Assembly (NCBI RefSeq): GCF_001049755.1
Contig: NZ_CVLB01000001.1
Location: forward strand, 1,878,995 to 1,942,994
Origin: Brachyspira suanatina
GTDB taxonomy: Bacteria > Spirochaetota > Brachyspiria > Brachyspirales > Brachyspiraceae
Length of the DNA: 64,000 bases
Direction of reading: 5' to 3'
Both the position numbers and the translations under genes were made by a program. The notes under the pieces were generated by a model. It was not told the origin of the DNA. It was given only the letters and a program-made list of their open reading frames with translations, and made no database searches. Below are positions 20,724-27,831 of the stretch, one piece after another; the stretch's first letter is position 1, and each line of letters begins with the position of its first letter.

Positions 20724-22010
20724 ATGAAAAAAATGCATTTAGATATAATAAATTTTTTATTTGATAAAAATAGAGAATTAATTAATAATAAAGAAACCAT
20801 TTTAAATCTTTTATTAGAAAATTATGAAAGTCTTATTAATTCTTTAAAAGAATATAAATTAAGTAAACCACCAAGAATTAATATATTTAAACTAATTGAT
20901 ATAGAAGAATTAGAACGTAAAAATTCTACAATATTATATGAATTACTGAAAATAAATATTAATAATGAAAATGTACGATTCAATTTTATAAACTCTTTTT
21001 TACAATATATTTTTAAAGAAGATATTATAAATGATAGTAATGAAACATTTGAAATAGAAAAAGAGTATAGTCCAAAAGGAACTCAAAAATCTATAGATTT
21101 GTATATTCATAATAGAAATTTTTCTGTTATTATTGAAAATAAAATTAACAGCGGAGATAATGGAGATAATCAGCTATTAAATTATATCAAGTATGTAAAA
21201 GATGAAATAAGTCATAATAATATTTATATTATATATTTAACTAGAGGCGGTTATTTACCTTCAGAAAATAGTTTACCAACAAAAGAAAGAATAAAATTAA
21301 AAAATAAATTTATTAATATATCACATAGAAATATTGCTGATTGGCTTAAATATATTATTTATGAAGATGAAAATTGTAATTTTATACATATGAAAGAATA
21401 TGATAATTTGAAATCTGCAATAGTTCAAATTATAGAAGAAGAGGAATATTTAAGTTCAAGCAGCGAAGAGGATACTTTTATGCAAGATAAATTAAAAGAA
21501 TTATTACAAAGCAATGATGCATATAATAATATTAGTACTCCTGAAGAAGCACAGGAATATATTGATTTGATTGAAAGTACAATAGAAATATTAAGACACC
21601 AAAAAACTGATAATATGCAAGATTATATAGATTATATTAAAAAAGTATCTGATATTTTGAGAGAAGATAAAAAATATAAATTTGAAATAGAAGATTCTGA
21701 TACTATAAAAGATAATTTATTTAATAAAAATTTCTCTCACACAATATATAAAGGATCTGATCAAATAGAAGGTTTGTATATTATTTTAGTACTTAAATAT
21801 AATCATATAAGTGTAGGATTTGATACAGGAGGAATTAAAAAAAGAGAATTAGGAAATATAATAGAAAAAATAAAAAACTATAAAATAAAATGGCTTAATA
21901 TAAATGATAATGAAGGTATATGGTATGATATAGATATAAATAATAAAAGTGCTGAAGATACAGCTTCTAAAATGAAAGAATTATATGATGCATTAAAAAA
22001 TATAAAATAA
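20724..22010 (+). CDS. PD-(D/E)XK nuclease superfamily protein (PDDEXK_4-like)
   Basis: 428 residues. The nuclease core shows Asp125 in SIDLYI, E138-N-K140 in VIIENKI, then a helix with Gln (NQLLNYIKYV), matching the D-[ED]xK-Q pattern of PDDEXK_4 proteins. An upstream strand (EKEYSPKGTQKSIDLYI) fits the family. The C-terminal 170 residues form a second domain beginning with a STPEEAQEYIDLIES helix and ending GIWYDIDIN--SAEDTA. This second domain is repeated as a separate protein by the next gene. A DNA nuclease or defence role is inferred; target unknown. The mRNA appears leaderless. Confidence 0.75.
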   Translation: MKKMHLDIINFLFDKNRELINNKETILNLLLENYESLINSLKEYKLSKPPRINIFKLIDIEELERKNSTILYELLKININNENVRFNFINSFLQYIFKEDIINDSNETFEIEKEYSPKGTQKSIDLYIHNRNFSVIIENKINSGDNGDNQLLNYIKYVKDEISHNNIYIIYLTRGGYLPSENSLPTKERIKLKNKFINISHRNIADWLKYIIYEDENCNFIHMKEYDNLKSAIVQIIEEEEYLSSSSEEDTFMQDKLKELLQSNDAYNNISTPEEAQEYIDLIESTIEILRHQKTDNMQDYIDYIKKVSDILREDKKYKFEIEDSDTIKDNLFNKNFSHTIYKGSDQIEGLYIILVLKYNHISVGFDTGGIKKRELGNIIEKIKNYKIKWLNINDNEGIWYDIDINNKSAEDTASKMKELYDALKNIK

Positions 22011-22023
22011 TTAGGTATTAAAT

Positions 22024-22578
22024 ATGAATGATAAATTATTGAAGCAAATATTAGAAAACAATAAAAATTATAAACAAATATCATCTATAGAAGATATAGA
22101 TAATTTTATTGATATATTAGAAAATACAAAAGAAGTTCTTATTGAAAAAAGACGGGAATTAGTACAAAAAAATGTACAGAATCATATTAATTTTTCTGAA
22201 TATGTTGATAAATTGATAAAATCTAAATATGAATTGATAAAATCTAAAAATGAACATTTTAATTTAAAAAAAGAAAAAAATACTTTATTAGATGAGATTT
22301 ATAACAAGACAGAATCTGATATAATATATTGTGATGTAAATGACTTTAGTATTTGTATAAAGATTGGTCAAGGAGAAGAATATATATATATTTGTATTTA
22401 CTCTAAAAATACAAAACTAATAAATAAATTAAAAAGTATAATATATTTAGATGAAGAATTCTCTTTCCTTGATGGAAATGACGATCATAATATATGGGGA
22501 CCTGTTGCTCAAAATGATGCAGAAGAAACAGCAAATAGAATGCTTACTATATTTAATGTAGTAAAGAAAATTAAATAG
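22024..22578 (+). CDS. paralogue of the C-terminal domain of the upstream nuclease
   Basis: 184 residues. It lacks the nuclease core but follows the C-terminal half of the upstream protein: SSIEDIDNFIDILENTKEVL against STPEEAQEYIDLIESTIEIL, and NIWGPVAQNDAEETANRM against GIWYDIDINNKSAEDTASKM. It is therefore a partial duplication that keeps only the second domain, perhaps a specificity or immunity partner. It starts 13 bases after the nuclease stop, with AGG as a weak ribosome site, so the two form one unit. Function unknown. Confidence 0.65.
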   Translation: MNDKLLKQILENNKNYKQISSIEDIDNFIDILENTKEVLIEKRRELVQKNVQNHINFSEYVDKLIKSKYELIKSKNEHFNLKKEKNTLLDEIYNKTESDIIYCDVNDFSICIKIGQGEEYIYICIYSKNTKLINKLKSIIYLDEEFSFLDGNDDHNIWGPVAQNDAEETANRMLTIFNVVKKIK

Positions 22579-22782
22579 TTATTATAATTAATTTAATATA
22601 TTTTTTATCGCTTTTTCTAACTTTATGGCACTGTATTTGAGTTTATAAAATAATCTTATATTTTATTATGCTTTTGAAAGCGTAAGTTAAATATTGTATT
22701 AAATAATACTAAGACAAAGCCTTGCAAATATTAAAATTAAAAAGCTTAGTATAATTTGTTATTTTTAATCTATTTACATTTG
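22579..22782. other. intergenic, no gene seen
   Basis: A/T-rich sequence between the nuclease pair and palindrome copy 1. Neither an open frame nor a clear hairpin terminator stands out. Confidence 0.3.
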
Positions 22783-23092
22783 CCCGCCCTATATATTTAA
22801 AACTTTTATTTGTTATTTTATATTTTATACTTCTTTAAAACTAATACTGCAATTATAGAACCCACCCAAAATTTTATTTAACTTTATAATCTATTCACCG
22901 CACGCAGAATGAAATTATAAATATATATTAATTATGAATTCTAATTTTTACTATATTTGAAATTTTACTTACCGTGCGTATAGTAAAGTCTTAAATTTAA
23001 AAAAATCTTGGGAGGGTGCTAAAATTTCTAATAAAGCTATAAATATAATAACACCACAATTACAGAAAAAACTATAAAGGATAAAGGGCGGG
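22783..23092. repeat. 310-bp imperfect palindrome, copy 1 (MITE-like)
   Basis: The ends are CCCGCCCT (22783-22790) and AGGGCGGG (23085-23092). Inside, a second arm pair (CCACCCAAAATTTT from 22862; right arm 22991-23018 ending GGGAGGGTG) and a third (CGCACG at 22899, CGTGCG at 22973) are nested symmetrically around GAATTC at 22936-22941, the exact centre. Copy 2 at 27522-27831 has the same length, order and centre. It has no coding capacity. Confidence 0.8.
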
Positions 23093-23120: not shown

Positions 23121-25736
23121 TTAAGAAAACATATCAGTAAGCCTAAAATCCCAAATCATCAAAATAAGTAATGTATAAATAAATCTATCCTGCAATTTTT
23201 GATTATCATTAAAAAAATTAATATTTATTTTTACTTTATCTTTGTAATCAATATCATTATTAGCATTTATAGTGATTTCAAGACTATCTCCATTTTCTAG
23301 TTTTAAATTATAAGTTTCAACTACACCATAATCTAAATAACTAGGATTCATTGAATACCTAGTACCGAAAGCCTTAAAAGTACCATAAGATATTTCAATG
23401 TTTTGTAATTTTTTTATTTCATTTTCCAAATTATTTTTATCTAATTTTATTATACTTAATTGATTTATTGTTTGAGTAAGTTCGTAATCTTCTAATTGTT
23501 TTCTCCATTTTGTAATAGTTTCATTATTCATTTCTATAGGACTTGCCAAACTTATAAAGCTGTCATCATCAATATTTACTTCTTCATCATCGCAATTTGT
23601 ATAACTTCCGTCACCTGCATATCTAAATGTAGTTAAAAACAAATTATCTTTATCATACAAATTCCAAATAAGTGAAGAAGCAAATTTATTCATTATAGAA
23701 TTATCAATAAATACTTCTTTGAAAAAACTATAATTATATTTCTTTTCATACATCAATAATTTTGTTAAATTTATAGAAAGTTTCTTTATTACTTTTGGTA
23801 TTTCTTTTTTGATATATTTAATTTCTTCTTTTTCAGTTTCTGTAAAATCTCTAGGTACTGCTTTTAACTCCTTATTATTTTTTATATCAAATATATTTAC
23901 AGAATAATCTGCATTCAAAATTAATTTATAATTATCATTAATAATTTTTTCTCCTCTTGAATCGAATCCCAAATTTGAACTAAACTTTAATTCTAAATCA
24001 TCAATATCAAGTCCTATTTCCTTTGATATCTTATTTATTAAATTAAAAGCATTTTCTCTCAATTCTGATTTTTTAGTTTTTGAATAAATATCATATAATA
24101 ACTTAATACTGTATTCTGTCGTTTTTACTGATGATAAAATTATCAAAAAGAAATTAGAGTCTTTCTCTTTCTTGTATATTTCTCTTAAAGCTTCATCGCC
24201 GCCATACAAACCATAAACAACAGCAGCAGCTTCTTTATATGTTTCTATATAAATATTTTTAGCAAAAGTCAAAAAACTTTCTCTGTCAAGTAAACCAATT
24301 ATAGAATCAATTTCAAGCAAATAATAAATATCTCTTTTTAACTCTAAATATTTTAAGTATATATATTTTATAACTTTTATATCAACTATTCTTGATTTAT
24401 CTTTTATTAACACATTACAATTTTCTATATAAGAAACTTTCTTCTCATCTTTTTTATTTAATTTAATAGTTTCTTCATATTTTTCAATACTGTCAAATAT
24501 TTCATAATCAACAACTTCTTTCAAATCATCATAATAAATATTTTCTAATTTTCTTTTAGCAAATTGAACTTTTTTATTTTTTATTTCTGAAGCTATTTTA
24601 TGAATCTCTTTTATATTCTCCTCTATTTTGTTAATTATAATTTTATTCTCATTATCAAAAGCATATAAATATAAAATCCATTTCAAACTTAATTTATCTA
24701 TATTTTTAGAAATAACATCAGACCAATCGCCTAAATACTCAAGAGATTCAATATTCCAATCCCCCAAAGAATCATAATGCTGAAAACCGCTTCTAAATAA
24801 CATTCCAATCATATTTTCTACTTTATCGACTTTCCAAGTACTCAAACTCTGATTAAAACTTTCTGCATCATAAAATAAACATTGCATAGATACTACATTA
24901 GAAGTGTCCCATTTATCCAAAGGCTGATTAAACTTTTTAGCTTTATCAAAAACATAATCCATTTCTATAATTTTAGATGTATTCCAAGTATTTAACGGCT
25001 GATTAAATTCATAGCAAAATTTAAACATATTTGATATATATTTCAAATTAGAAGTATCCCAATTATCTAAAGGCTGATTAAAACTATAACAATCTTCAAA
25101 CATACTATGTGCATATTCTAATTTAGAAACATCCCAATTATTAATATTTTGATTAAAGTTTATACAATGCTTAAACATACTAGCAGTACTTATTAAACTA
25201 GAAGTATTCCATTTATCTAAAGACTGATTGAAATTCCAGCATTCTTCAAACATGTTATTGGCATATTCTAATTTTGAAACATTCCAATTATTAATATTTT
25301 GATTGAAATTTCTACAATTCATAAACATACCAGTAGCACTTATTACATTGGAAGTATCCCAATTATCTAAAGGCTGATTGAAATTTGAACAATGAGCAAA
25401 TGTGTAAACCATTTCTTTTACTTTAGATACATTCCAAGAATTTAAATTTTGATTAAATTTTTTACAATATTTAAACATTCCTTTTATATTTTCAGCGTTA
25501 GATAGATTCCATTTAGAAATATCTTCATTAAAATTTACACACTCCCTGAACATATAACTAAAATCTATAACATTACTTACATTCCATTTATCTATACCAG
25601 AAAAATCTTCTCTTTTTATTAATGAAAATAAATATTTCATATCCGTTATTAAACTAGTATCTATATCACCTAAGTAAATATTTTCATCTTGTATTAAAAT
25701 TCTTAATTCTTCTTTTGTTTGAGGATAATATTTCAT
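23121..25736 (-). CDS. DUF285 (BspA-like) repeat protein with C-terminal DUF4132-like domain
   Basis: 871 residues. A conserved cap (KEELR-LIQDENIYLGDID, SLITDM) is followed from about residue 45 to 340 by roughly 12 tandem 25-residue units of the pattern FNQ-L--W-TS-V----MF--C. These are the DUF285/BspA-like leucine-rich-type repeats. After a helical linker, residues about 640-800 (SSLIWNLYDKDN, TFRYAGDGSYTN, W---L-DYELTQTINQLSI) resemble DUF4132, found in MolR-like proteins. There is no signal peptide or lipobox, so a cytoplasmic location is likely, unlike BspA. AAGGA lies 8 bases upstream. Role unknown; the repeats suggest protein binding. Confidence 0.8.
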   Translation of the reverse strand: MKYYPQTKEELRILIQDENIYLGDIDTSLITDMKYLFSLIKREDFSGIDKWNVSNVIDFSYMFRECVNFNEDISKWNLSNAENIKGMFKYCKKFNQNLNSWNVSKVKEMVYTFAHCSNFNQPLDNWDTSNVISATGMFMNCRNFNQNINNWNVSKLEYANNMFEECWNFNQSLDKWNTSSLISTASMFKHCINFNQNINNWDVSKLEYAHSMFEDCYSFNQPLDNWDTSNLKYISNMFKFCYEFNQPLNTWNTSKIIEMDYVFDKAKKFNQPLDKWDTSNVVSMQCLFYDAESFNQSLSTWKVDKVENMIGMLFRSGFQHYDSLGDWNIESLEYLGDWSDVISKNIDKLSLKWILYLYAFDNENKIIINKIEENIKEIHKIASEIKNKKVQFAKRKLENIYYDDLKEVVDYEIFDSIEKYEETIKLNKKDEKKVSYIENCNVLIKDKSRIVDIKVIKYIYLKYLELKRDIYYLLEIDSIIGLLDRESFLTFAKNIYIETYKEAAAVVYGLYGGDEALREIYKKEKDSNFFLIILSSVKTTEYSIKLLYDIYSKTKKSELRENAFNLINKISKEIGLDIDDLELKFSSNLGFDSRGEKIINDNYKLILNADYSVNIFDIKNNKELKAVPRDFTETEKEEIKYIKKEIPKVIKKLSINLTKLLMYEKKYNYSFFKEVFIDNSIMNKFASSLIWNLYDKDNLFLTTFRYAGDGSYTNCDDEEVNIDDDSFISLASPIEMNNETITKWRKQLEDYELTQTINQLSIIKLDKNNLENEIKKLQNIEISYGTFKAFGTRYSMNPSYLDYGVVETYNLKLENGDSLEITINANNDIDYKDKVKININFFNDNQKLQDRFIYTLLILMIWDFRLTDMFS

Positions 25737-25999
25737 TATTATGTTTCCTTATTCTTTTTTATTATTCTATATTCTTATATATATTTTTCAATTTAAAAAA
25801 CTATATAATAAATAAATTTTGTATAAAATTTTTAATACAATGACAAAGTTTAATTATTGTATGGTATTTCAATTATAATATTTGTCTTTTTGCAACTTTG
25901 ACGAAGTCGCGGAAAAAAAGTTAATATAATTTTTTTATTTTTATAATTGTGGCTTGCCCACCGCGAAGTGTATACGTCTGTAAAAAGAACAATAAAAAA
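25737..25999. other. intergenic, promoter side of the DUF285 gene
   Basis: The first 60 bases upstream of the start codon are nearly the same as those upstream of the paralogue at 27452, so the genes were duplicated with their control region. Beyond that lie a GCGGAAAAAAAG block and CCACCGCGAAGTG, fragments like those of the dispersed repeat. No gene. Confidence 0.4.
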
Positions 26000-26028
26000 T
26001 TGACAAACTTAAAAATTTTCAGTATATA
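26000..26028 (+). promoter_or_regulatory. promoter-like direct repeat, left copy
   Basis: TTGACA, 17 bases, TATATA. The same 29 bases recur exactly at 26359-26387. It reads into the noncoding dispersed repeat. Confidence 0.5.
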
Positions 26029-26029
26029 C

Positions 26030-26350
26030 CTAAACAAATATACTTTGTCAGAAATAATTTTTTTAATTTTAAATATCTGCAGGGCTTTGCCCCGAACCCC
26101 AGTTCTTTTACAACCGAAGGAAGTACTGTAAGTATTGGTATAAAAGAACCAAGGCTCTGACCACTACACTTCGTTTCGTGAAAGAACTGCATTTTTATAG
26201 GTTATACCATATATTTAATAGGCATGTTTTAATATAAAGTTCTAGCACTTGCGTTTTCGCAAAGCGTATCCGAGCTTGTCGAGGATATAGGTTCTTTAAC
26301 GAAGTCCGCAGAGCGTGTGCGTCAAAAAAGTAGATAACATTTATATAAAG
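26030..26350. repeat. dispersed hairpin-rich intergenic repeat, copy B
   Basis: Shares with 9061-9280 the blocks GGGCTTTGCCC, CCCC-GTTCTTTT, ACTGCATTTTT, TTTTCGCAAAGCG and AAAAAGTAGATAA in the same order, but its middle is longer and includes extra hairpins (CACTTCGTTTCGTG). No credible gene; an open frame across 25949-26131 has no family or ribosome site. Confidence 0.6.
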
Positions 26351-26358
26351 TGTATCAG

Positions 26359-26387
26359 TTGACAAACTTAAAAATTTTCAGTATATA
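26359..26387 (+). promoter_or_regulatory. promoter-like direct repeat, right copy
   Basis: TTGACA, 17 bases, TATATA, identical to 26000-26028. Transcription from here would run antisense into the 3' end of the truncated DUF285 gene. Confidence 0.5.
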
Positions 26388-26411: not shown

Positions 26412-27452
26412 TCATTTTATTTTTGATTTTTGTTTATATTCATTTAAAATATTTTTTTTATTTTCAATAAGTTCTTTTAATTCTTCATAATAAATATTTT
26501 CTAATTTCTTTATAAAATCTTTTAATTTATTATATTTCAAAACTTCTTTATACACTTCTTTTATATCGCAGTTTTCAAGCATAGAAAGCAATTGTTTTTT
26601 ATAATTACCTTTAGCAATAAAATAAATTTTCAATATTGATTTCATATTATTATAAGAACTTGAAAAAATATCTTTAATATCACAATATTTATTAATATCC
26701 CAATTTTCTATTGACTGATTAAAACTTTCTGCTGCAAAAAACATATCATTCATATACTTAACTTCGCTTACATTCCAAGAATTTATATTCTGATTGAAAC
26801 TCAAAGCATAATAAAACATAACTTCCATATTTATAACTTTTGAAGTATTCCATTTATCAAGCGGCTGATTAAATTTATTAGCTTTTGAAAACATACCGGA
26901 CATATCGGTAACATTTGAAGTATCCCAATTATTTAAAGGCTGATTAAAATTAGAACATTCATAAAAAGTATAACGCATATCTTTTACATTGCTAACATTC
27001 CAATTTTCTATATTCTGATTAAAATTCTTACAGCCAAAAAATGTAACATGTAAAGTTTCAATATTTGAAGTATCCCATTTATACAAAGGCTGATCAAACC
27101 TAAAGCAATTATAAAACATAAAGCTGATATTTTTAACATTAGAGATATTCCAGTCATTAAGAGGCTGATTAAATATAACAGCATAGTTAAACATCTTTGA
27201 CATATTTTCAACTTTAGAAACGTCCCAGCTATTAATATTATAATTAAAATTTTCTGCCAATTCAAACATACTGCTCATATTAACAACATTAGAAGTATTC
27301 CAAGTTTCAAGTCCTTCAAAATTTACTCTCTTACTGTTTTGAAACAATTCGCTCATGTCTGTTATTAAACTTGTATCAATATCACCCAAGTAAATATTTT
27401 CATCTTGTATTAGATTTCTTAATTCTTCTTTAGTTTGAGGTTTATATATCAT
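26412..27452 (-). CDS. DUF285 (BspA-like) repeat protein, truncated paralogue
   Basis: 346 residues: the same N-terminal cap as the 871-residue protein (KEELRNLIQDENIYLGDID), about eight 25-residue units (FNQPLNDWNISNVKNISFMF and similar), then a helical linker. It stops after KKLENIYYEELKELIENKK, which aligns with the start of the linker in the longer paralogue; the whole DUF4132-like part is missing. The dispersed repeat begins soon downstream, consistent with loss of the 3' half by rearrangement. AAGGA lies 9 bases before the start. No signal peptide. It may be a working repeat-only protein or a decayed copy. Confidence 0.75.
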   Translation of the reverse strand: MIYKPQTKEELRNLIQDENIYLGDIDTSLITDMSELFQNSKRVNFEGLETWNTSNVVNMSSMFELAENFNYNINSWDVSKVENMSKMFNYAVIFNQPLNDWNISNVKNISFMFYNCFRFDQPLYKWDTSNIETLHVTFFGCKNFNQNIENWNVSNVKDMRYTFYECSNFNQPLNNWDTSNVTDMSGMFSKANKFNQPLDKWNTSKVINMEVMFYYALSFNQNINSWNVSEVKYMNDMFFAAESFNQSIENWDINKYCDIKDIFSSSYNNMKSILKIYFIAKGNYKKQLLSMLENCDIKEVYKEVLKYNKLKDFIKKLENIYYEELKELIENKKNILNEYKQKSKIK

Positions 27453-27521: not shown

Positions 27522-27831
27522 CCCACCCTTCTATATTTACAATTTTACCTGTTATTTTTACTTTATAATTTCTTTAAAAACAATACTGAAATTAGAAAAC
27601 CCACCCAAATTTTATTTAACTATATAATTACTTCACCGCACGGAGAATAAAACTATAAAATATATATGAATTTGAATTCTAATATTTACTATATTTAAAA
27701 TTTCACTTACCGTGCGTATAGTAAAGTCTTAAATTTAAAAAAATCTTGGGCGGGTGCTGAAATTTATGATAAGGCAATAAATATAATAATATTATAATTT
27801 CAAAATAAAACTATGAAAAATAAATGGCGGG
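27522..27831. repeat. 310-bp imperfect palindrome, copy 2 (MITE-like)
   Basis: Same length and arm order as copy 1 (22783-23092). Ends are CCCACCC and GGCGGGA, the inner arms are CCACCC and GGGCGGGTG, then CGCACG and CGTGCG, centred on GAATTC at 27674-27679. It lies between divergent genes. The remainder of the gap (27832-27939) holds the promoter of the next gene. Confidence 0.8.

Follow-up and report, generated by a model that had tools for sequence, protein, structure and literature searches.

The two 310-bp palindromes in our window, the 64,000-nucleotide stretch of Brachyspira suanatina DNA analyzed here, belong to a large family of intergenic elements. In the reading that we favor, at a probability of a little under one half (~0.47), this family is ancient and vertically inherited and acts at the level of DNA as a putative multi-site protein-binding scaffold. 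A non-coding element that occupies ~140 places per genome, spans a spirochaete genus from the guts of animals and humans and is apparently undescribed has several implications. First, its conserved 6–7-bp blocks, fixed-length but drifting spacers and concentration away from the replication origin make a nucleoid-organizing function cheaply and directly testable, and such a function would be of interest in a phylum whose chromosome organization is little known. Second, recombination between palindrome copies accounts for local rearrangement of DUF285 genes. Finally, the family poses a risk to short-read assembly and to typing.

Copy 1 (22783..23092) and copy 2 (27522..27831) are both full arm–core–arm elements at the positions given in a preliminary description of this DNA, and are 85% identical by BLAST. 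Ungapped palindromic identity is 0.52 in copy 2 and 0.44 in copy 1, rising to 0.56 in copy 1 with a 1-bp register shift, compared with 0.315 ± 0.035 (maximum 0.43) in 2000 shuffles. The nested arm pairs noted earlier are present as outer CCCRCCC/GGGCGGG, inner CCCACCC/GGGNGGG and core CGCACG/CGTGCG blocks, which are conspicuous against DNA of 26% GC, except that copy 2 ends in CCCACCC and TGGCGGG. In copy 1, the plus-strand blocks are CCCGCCC (outer left, 22783..22789), CCCACCC (inner left, 22861..22867) and a CGCACG core block of the CA subtype (22899..22904); these are followed, in minus-strand orientation, by CGTGCG (core, 22973..22978), GGGAGGG with a degenerate middle base (inner right, 23010..23016) and GGGCGGG (outer right, 23086..23092). 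The corresponding blocks of copy 2 are CCCACCC (27522..27528), CCCACCC (27600..27606) and CGCACG (27637..27642) on the plus strand, and CGTGCG (27711..27716), GGGCGGG (27748..27754) and the degenerate TGGCGGG (27825..27831) on the minus strand. GAATTC, said to mark the exact center, is present in both copies but lies 1 bp off-center in copy 1; it occurs in only 4 of 34 full copies and is therefore not a feature of the family. Two other elements of the preliminary description gave way on closer inspection. The repeating unit is ~346 bp rather than 310 bp, each end carrying half of a conserved palindromic linker (for example, ATTTACATTTG at 22769..22782, the left end of copy 1), and the element is polar rather than symmetric, its halves tending to differ in subtype.

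Between the two copies lie two minus-strand genes, one encoding a protein with DUF285 (PF03382) and DUF4132 domains (23121..25736) and the other a second DUF285 protein (26412..27452). On the other side of copy 1, two neighboring genes (428 and 184 amino acids; 20724-22578 of the window) have no Pfam match. Another dispersed repeat, unrelated to the palindromes and at least 157 bp long (...GGCAGGGCTTTGCCCCGCACCCCAGTTCTTTTATTGGTATAAAAGAACC...GTTGACAAACTTAAAAATTTTCAGTATATAT), has one copy between the two DUF285 genes, at about 25940-26380 of the window, and another at L032:11443-11720; its copies are 80–96% identical across Brachyspira genomes. Small CGCACG-32-CGTGCG palindromes (L035:10014-10060 and L028:14092-14136), which have the core block in common with the 310-bp family, adjoin the GTTGACAAACTTAAAAATTT end of this second repeat.

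Across the palindrome family, the blocks follow the order CCCRCCC-70-CCCRCCC-30-CGCACG-68-CGTGCG-30-GGGYGGG-70-GGGYGGG, with gaps of 70.4 ± 1.0 bp within arms, 30.3 ± 0.6 bp between arm and core, 67.9 ± 1.0 bp within the core and 35.8 ± 1.3 bp in the linker. A full unit of ~346 bp comprises two arms, a core and the palindromic linker common to tandem units, whose outer blocks are joined across ~36 bp (GGGYGGG-caaATGTAATTAAATTTTAAAACTTAATTACATac-CCCRCCC). Half of the linker is retained at many single ends, and it is because of these half-linkers that the period is ~346 bp; in a tandem array of genome G003, units are spaced 347–352 bp apart. Measured from center to center, successive blocks are 7.4, 3.5, 7.0 and 4.1 helical turns apart, and 346 bp corresponds to 33 turns, possibly by coincidence. 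The polarity is evident in the two bases that follow CGCACG, compared across the core: CA faces GT in 38 cases and GT faces GT in 8, whereas CA never faces CA; other pairs make up the remainder. Half units, consisting of a core and one arm, outnumber full units and start sharply at a core block, often no more than ~25 bp and in some cases within ~10 bp of a stop codon.

The family is neither confined to the window nor the product of segmental duplication of one locus, which its genome-wide and genus-wide distribution rules out; the proposal of a non-coding, foldback-like dispersed repeat is borne out. The MurB protein encoded nearby also assigns the DNA to Brachyspira. BLAST returned 73 matches in the window's own genome (E<=0.001), most of them outside the window pair, and 1 to 57 matches apiece in 18 other Brachyspira genomes. 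Within a 450-kb sample of the own genome, composed of regions around BLAST matches, each GC block occurs ~20–40 times per strand in fixed order, compared with 0.36 expected, and a profile search of this sample found 71 places: 21 full elements, 41 halves of ~200 bp and 9 partial ones. Scaling on exact inner blocks gives an estimate of ~140 places in the genome, which may be off because the sampled loci were picked by BLAST matches. The family is nearly absent from two divergent Brachyspira genomes, G005 and G009, with 1–2 inner blocks each; this near-absence offers a natural comparison for tracing a putative binding protein, whose best correlate would be restriction to the species that carry the elements. 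Outside Brachyspira, 12 spirochaete genomes were searched: ten had no match and two had one or two weak ones (~1e-4), and the genus specificity of the family is judged from these 12. Phage, plasmid and E. coli collections yielded no matches, which speaks against a phage or plasmid origin, and pattern matches in viral contigs were chance occurrences in DNA of richer GC without a model hit. A term search of two Brachyspira genome papers (PMC3532143 and PMC2650404) did not bring up any such repeat, and a review of prokaryotic MITEs (PMC10969869) does not mention Brachyspira; provisionally, we regard the family as undescribed, subscription literature lying outside the search.

Comparison of the own genome with Brachyspira genome G012 reveals strong purifying selection on the blocks, together with spacers that are constrained in length while their sequence drifts. 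Substitutions affect 8 of 355 block positions (2.3%) but 420 of 3381 spacer positions (12.4%; p=3e-11). At G/C sites, the difference is 16-fold (5/313 or 1.6% in blocks and 154/594 or 25.9% in spacers; p=2e-25), with 294/1836 changed in other intergenic DNA. Because blocks were recognized by an intact sequence in one genome of the pair, this contrast is somewhat inflated, by up to about twofold. An alignment of 12 orthologues at one conserved site, locus A, was made without such a filter, and there the core and inner blocks scarcely vary, mean column identity being 83%. Spacer lengths stay constant within 1–2 bp despite far-reaching sequence drift, and indels per substitution are fewer in spacers (0.126) than in other intergenic DNA (0.229; p=2e-4).

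Placement in the chromosome is also non-random. Among gaps of at least 120 bp in the own-genome sample, an element is present in 22 of 35 convergent, 15 of 90 tandem and 8 of 58 divergent gaps. The terminus half of genome G031, where stretches were chosen by coordinate, one of them on a dense cluster, gives 8/28, 6/103 and 4/27, respectively (convergent versus tandem p=0.002). Tandem gaps include those within operons, and the convergent preference is therefore partly a matter of tolerance. The chromosome half opposite dnaA contains 113 of the 128 exact inner blocks of G031 (Rayleigh p ~1e-26; 5e-15 with clusters collapsed), which peak near 1.66 Mb within a broad, noisy zone of GC-skew sign change (~1.45–2.0 Mb), and the 100 matches listed for G012 give a similar terminus-side picture. 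The second repeat family, a small and non-random control, is on the terminus side in 7 of 12 cases (p=0.015 versus the palindromes). Element polarity shows no bias with replichore and thus no FtsK/KOPS-like signature.

The main rival to a scaffold, which we consider rather unlikely, is that the elements are fossils of MITE-like transposons. The blocks would then be present or past transposase sites in inverted ends, and the family would have spread before speciation, decayed slowly and been duplicated locally in tandem. Inverted arms, ~140 places in intergenic positions, sharp-ended full and truncated forms and the G003 array with its period of 347–352 bp all fit this history, and some dispersal mechanism must once have acted. 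The MITE-like character proposed earlier fits insofar as the elements have inverted ends and no transposase gene inside. In the DNA collinear with G012, however, the comparison gave neither a clean empty site nor a target duplication, and the Y1 transposase (PF01797), the type searched for, is absent from six Brachyspira genomes and present in 5 of 14 controls. Nor was any element found among the viral-contig pattern matches. Moreover, orthologous positions are retained across species. Palindromic elements occupy collinear positions in the own genome and G012; the full element of locus A (L141-L159), at the A_left gene or beside A_right, is kept in 13 genomes, and a double half at locus B in 11–12. 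Continued selection on the blocks after fixation would be unexpected for a fossil.

An RNA-level role, in which pairing of arms or linkers would form a bidirectional terminator, a 3′ UTR stabilizer or another structured RNA, is improbable as the main function. In its favor, individual elements have more stable folds than shuffled sequences (z -5.65, -4.54 and -3.09), the linkers fold into GC-clamped hairpins with T-rich DNA after them (mean z -1.7), elements are placed in convergent gaps and some half units begin no more than ~10 bp from a stop codon. Good folding of single copies is, however, what any diverged inverted repeat gives, and the signs of a pairing constraint are missing. Two arms taken from one element resemble each other less than arms taken from separate elements do (0.539 versus 0.574; permutation p=0.99), the opposite of what pairing predicts, and the same is true of linker halves (0.685 versus 0.724; p=0.99). 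The middle bases of blocks that face each other across the linker match in only 5 of 26 cases, a full match being avoided (p=0.003); inner blocks facing across the core have a G:C match in 1 of 33, a weak tendency against matching, and outer blocks across the core show no tendency to avoid it. The compensatory changes that a fold should leave did not emerge: for 12 locus A orthologues, the GC blocks are invariant and the RNAalifold covariation term is -0.23 kcal/mol. Rfam returned no match at E<=1. At several loci, canonical intrinsic terminators stand outside the element, between the stop codon of a flanking gene and the palindrome; at other half units, the core directly adjoins the stop codon, with no distinct terminator in evidence. 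The tests of arms, linkers and blocks, together with the covariation result, count against a foldback RNA or cruciform maintained by pairing.

Copies do recombine. At locus A, species differ in which of the two subtypes the right arm belongs to, a switch that points to gene conversion among copies or to an exchange of arms. At the window locus, genome G015 carries only one element, which is similar to copy 1 in its left arm (0.92) and core (0.97) and to copy 2 in its right arm (0.95 against 0.90), and one element of genome G007 joins the left flank of copy 2 (0.89) to the right flank of copy 1 (0.89), that is, it lies between two DUF285 genes. Such chimeras are the expected products of crossing over between copies that flank DUF285 genes. 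The suggestion that the palindromes guided duplication of these genes is upheld to the extent that both copies took part in DUF285 rearrangement, which may have been a loss or a gain. That the elements serve mainly as recombination sites for gain, loss and amplification of cassettes such as the DUF285 genes is very improbable, despite the chimeras in G015 and G007 and the arm exchange between species at locus A, as loci A and B adjoin conserved genes and keep their element across species, exchange between any 85%-identical repeats is expected without selection, and no recombinase is linked to the element.

We return to the protein-binding scaffold. Short conserved blocks at fixed distances, separated by drifting spacers and free of any pairing constraint, suggest protein–DNA contacts. 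One or more putative DNA-binding proteins would recognize CCCRCCC and ACCGYRCG and could come together along the unit, with the AT-rich spacers bent or wrapped. Such assemblies might organize the terminus-side nucleoid or handle supercoils where convergent transcription collides. Recombination between copies would then be a side effect that shuffles arms and, near the window copies, has changed the arrangement of the DUF285 genes. Against this model, terminus-side and convergent locations are also where tolerated repeats accumulate, and polarity shows no replichore bias; the scaffold also leaves the spread of the family unexplained. A bolder version, in which 346-bp modules, read through the spacing of their blocks and not as continuous sequence, constitute an undescribed class of large, polar, multi-block scaffold that organizes the terminus half of the Brachyspira chromosome through a putative genus-specific protein, is on balance doubtful.

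Among known repeats, the BIME/REP elements of enterobacteria and pseudomonads are similar in their high copy number, their intergenic location between convergent genes or after genes, their mosaics of alternating orientation with fixed linkers and the DNA-binding roles proposed for them. REP units, however, are 20–40-bp hairpins with a tagged end (GTAG/CGTC), whereas the Brachyspira unit is ~346 bp long with six GC blocks and AT spacers of 30–70 bp. REPs are also tied to Y1 (RAYT/TnpA-REP) transposases, whose absence from six Brachyspira genomes rules out a REP/RAYT system, and the Brachyspira arms show no pairing constraint. ERIC/IRU, Correia (CREE/NEMIS), BOX and other MITE-like repeats are likewise palindromic, non-coding and dispersed, with lengths of 100–300 bp and sometimes, as in BOX, a modular build. 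The Brachyspira family differs from them in conservation restricted to blocks, rigid spacing, concentration opposite the origin and positions conserved across species, and in showing neither target duplication nor mobility.

Like matS, which is bound by MatP in the Ter macrodomain of E. coli, the palindromes are concentrated near the terminus and would act at the DNA level without coding capacity. The matS site is a single 13-bp palindrome present in 23 copies; the Brachyspira elements are large multi-block units at ~140 places. The scaffold role that we propose resembles those proposed for E. coli BIMEs or matS, from sequences that are unrelated. Finally, the palindromes resemble strong DNA-gyrase sites and the gyrase sites of BIME-2 in lying where positive supercoils from convergent transcription would be expected to build up, and the inner blocks centered on the core span ~148 bp, a length that is suggestive only.
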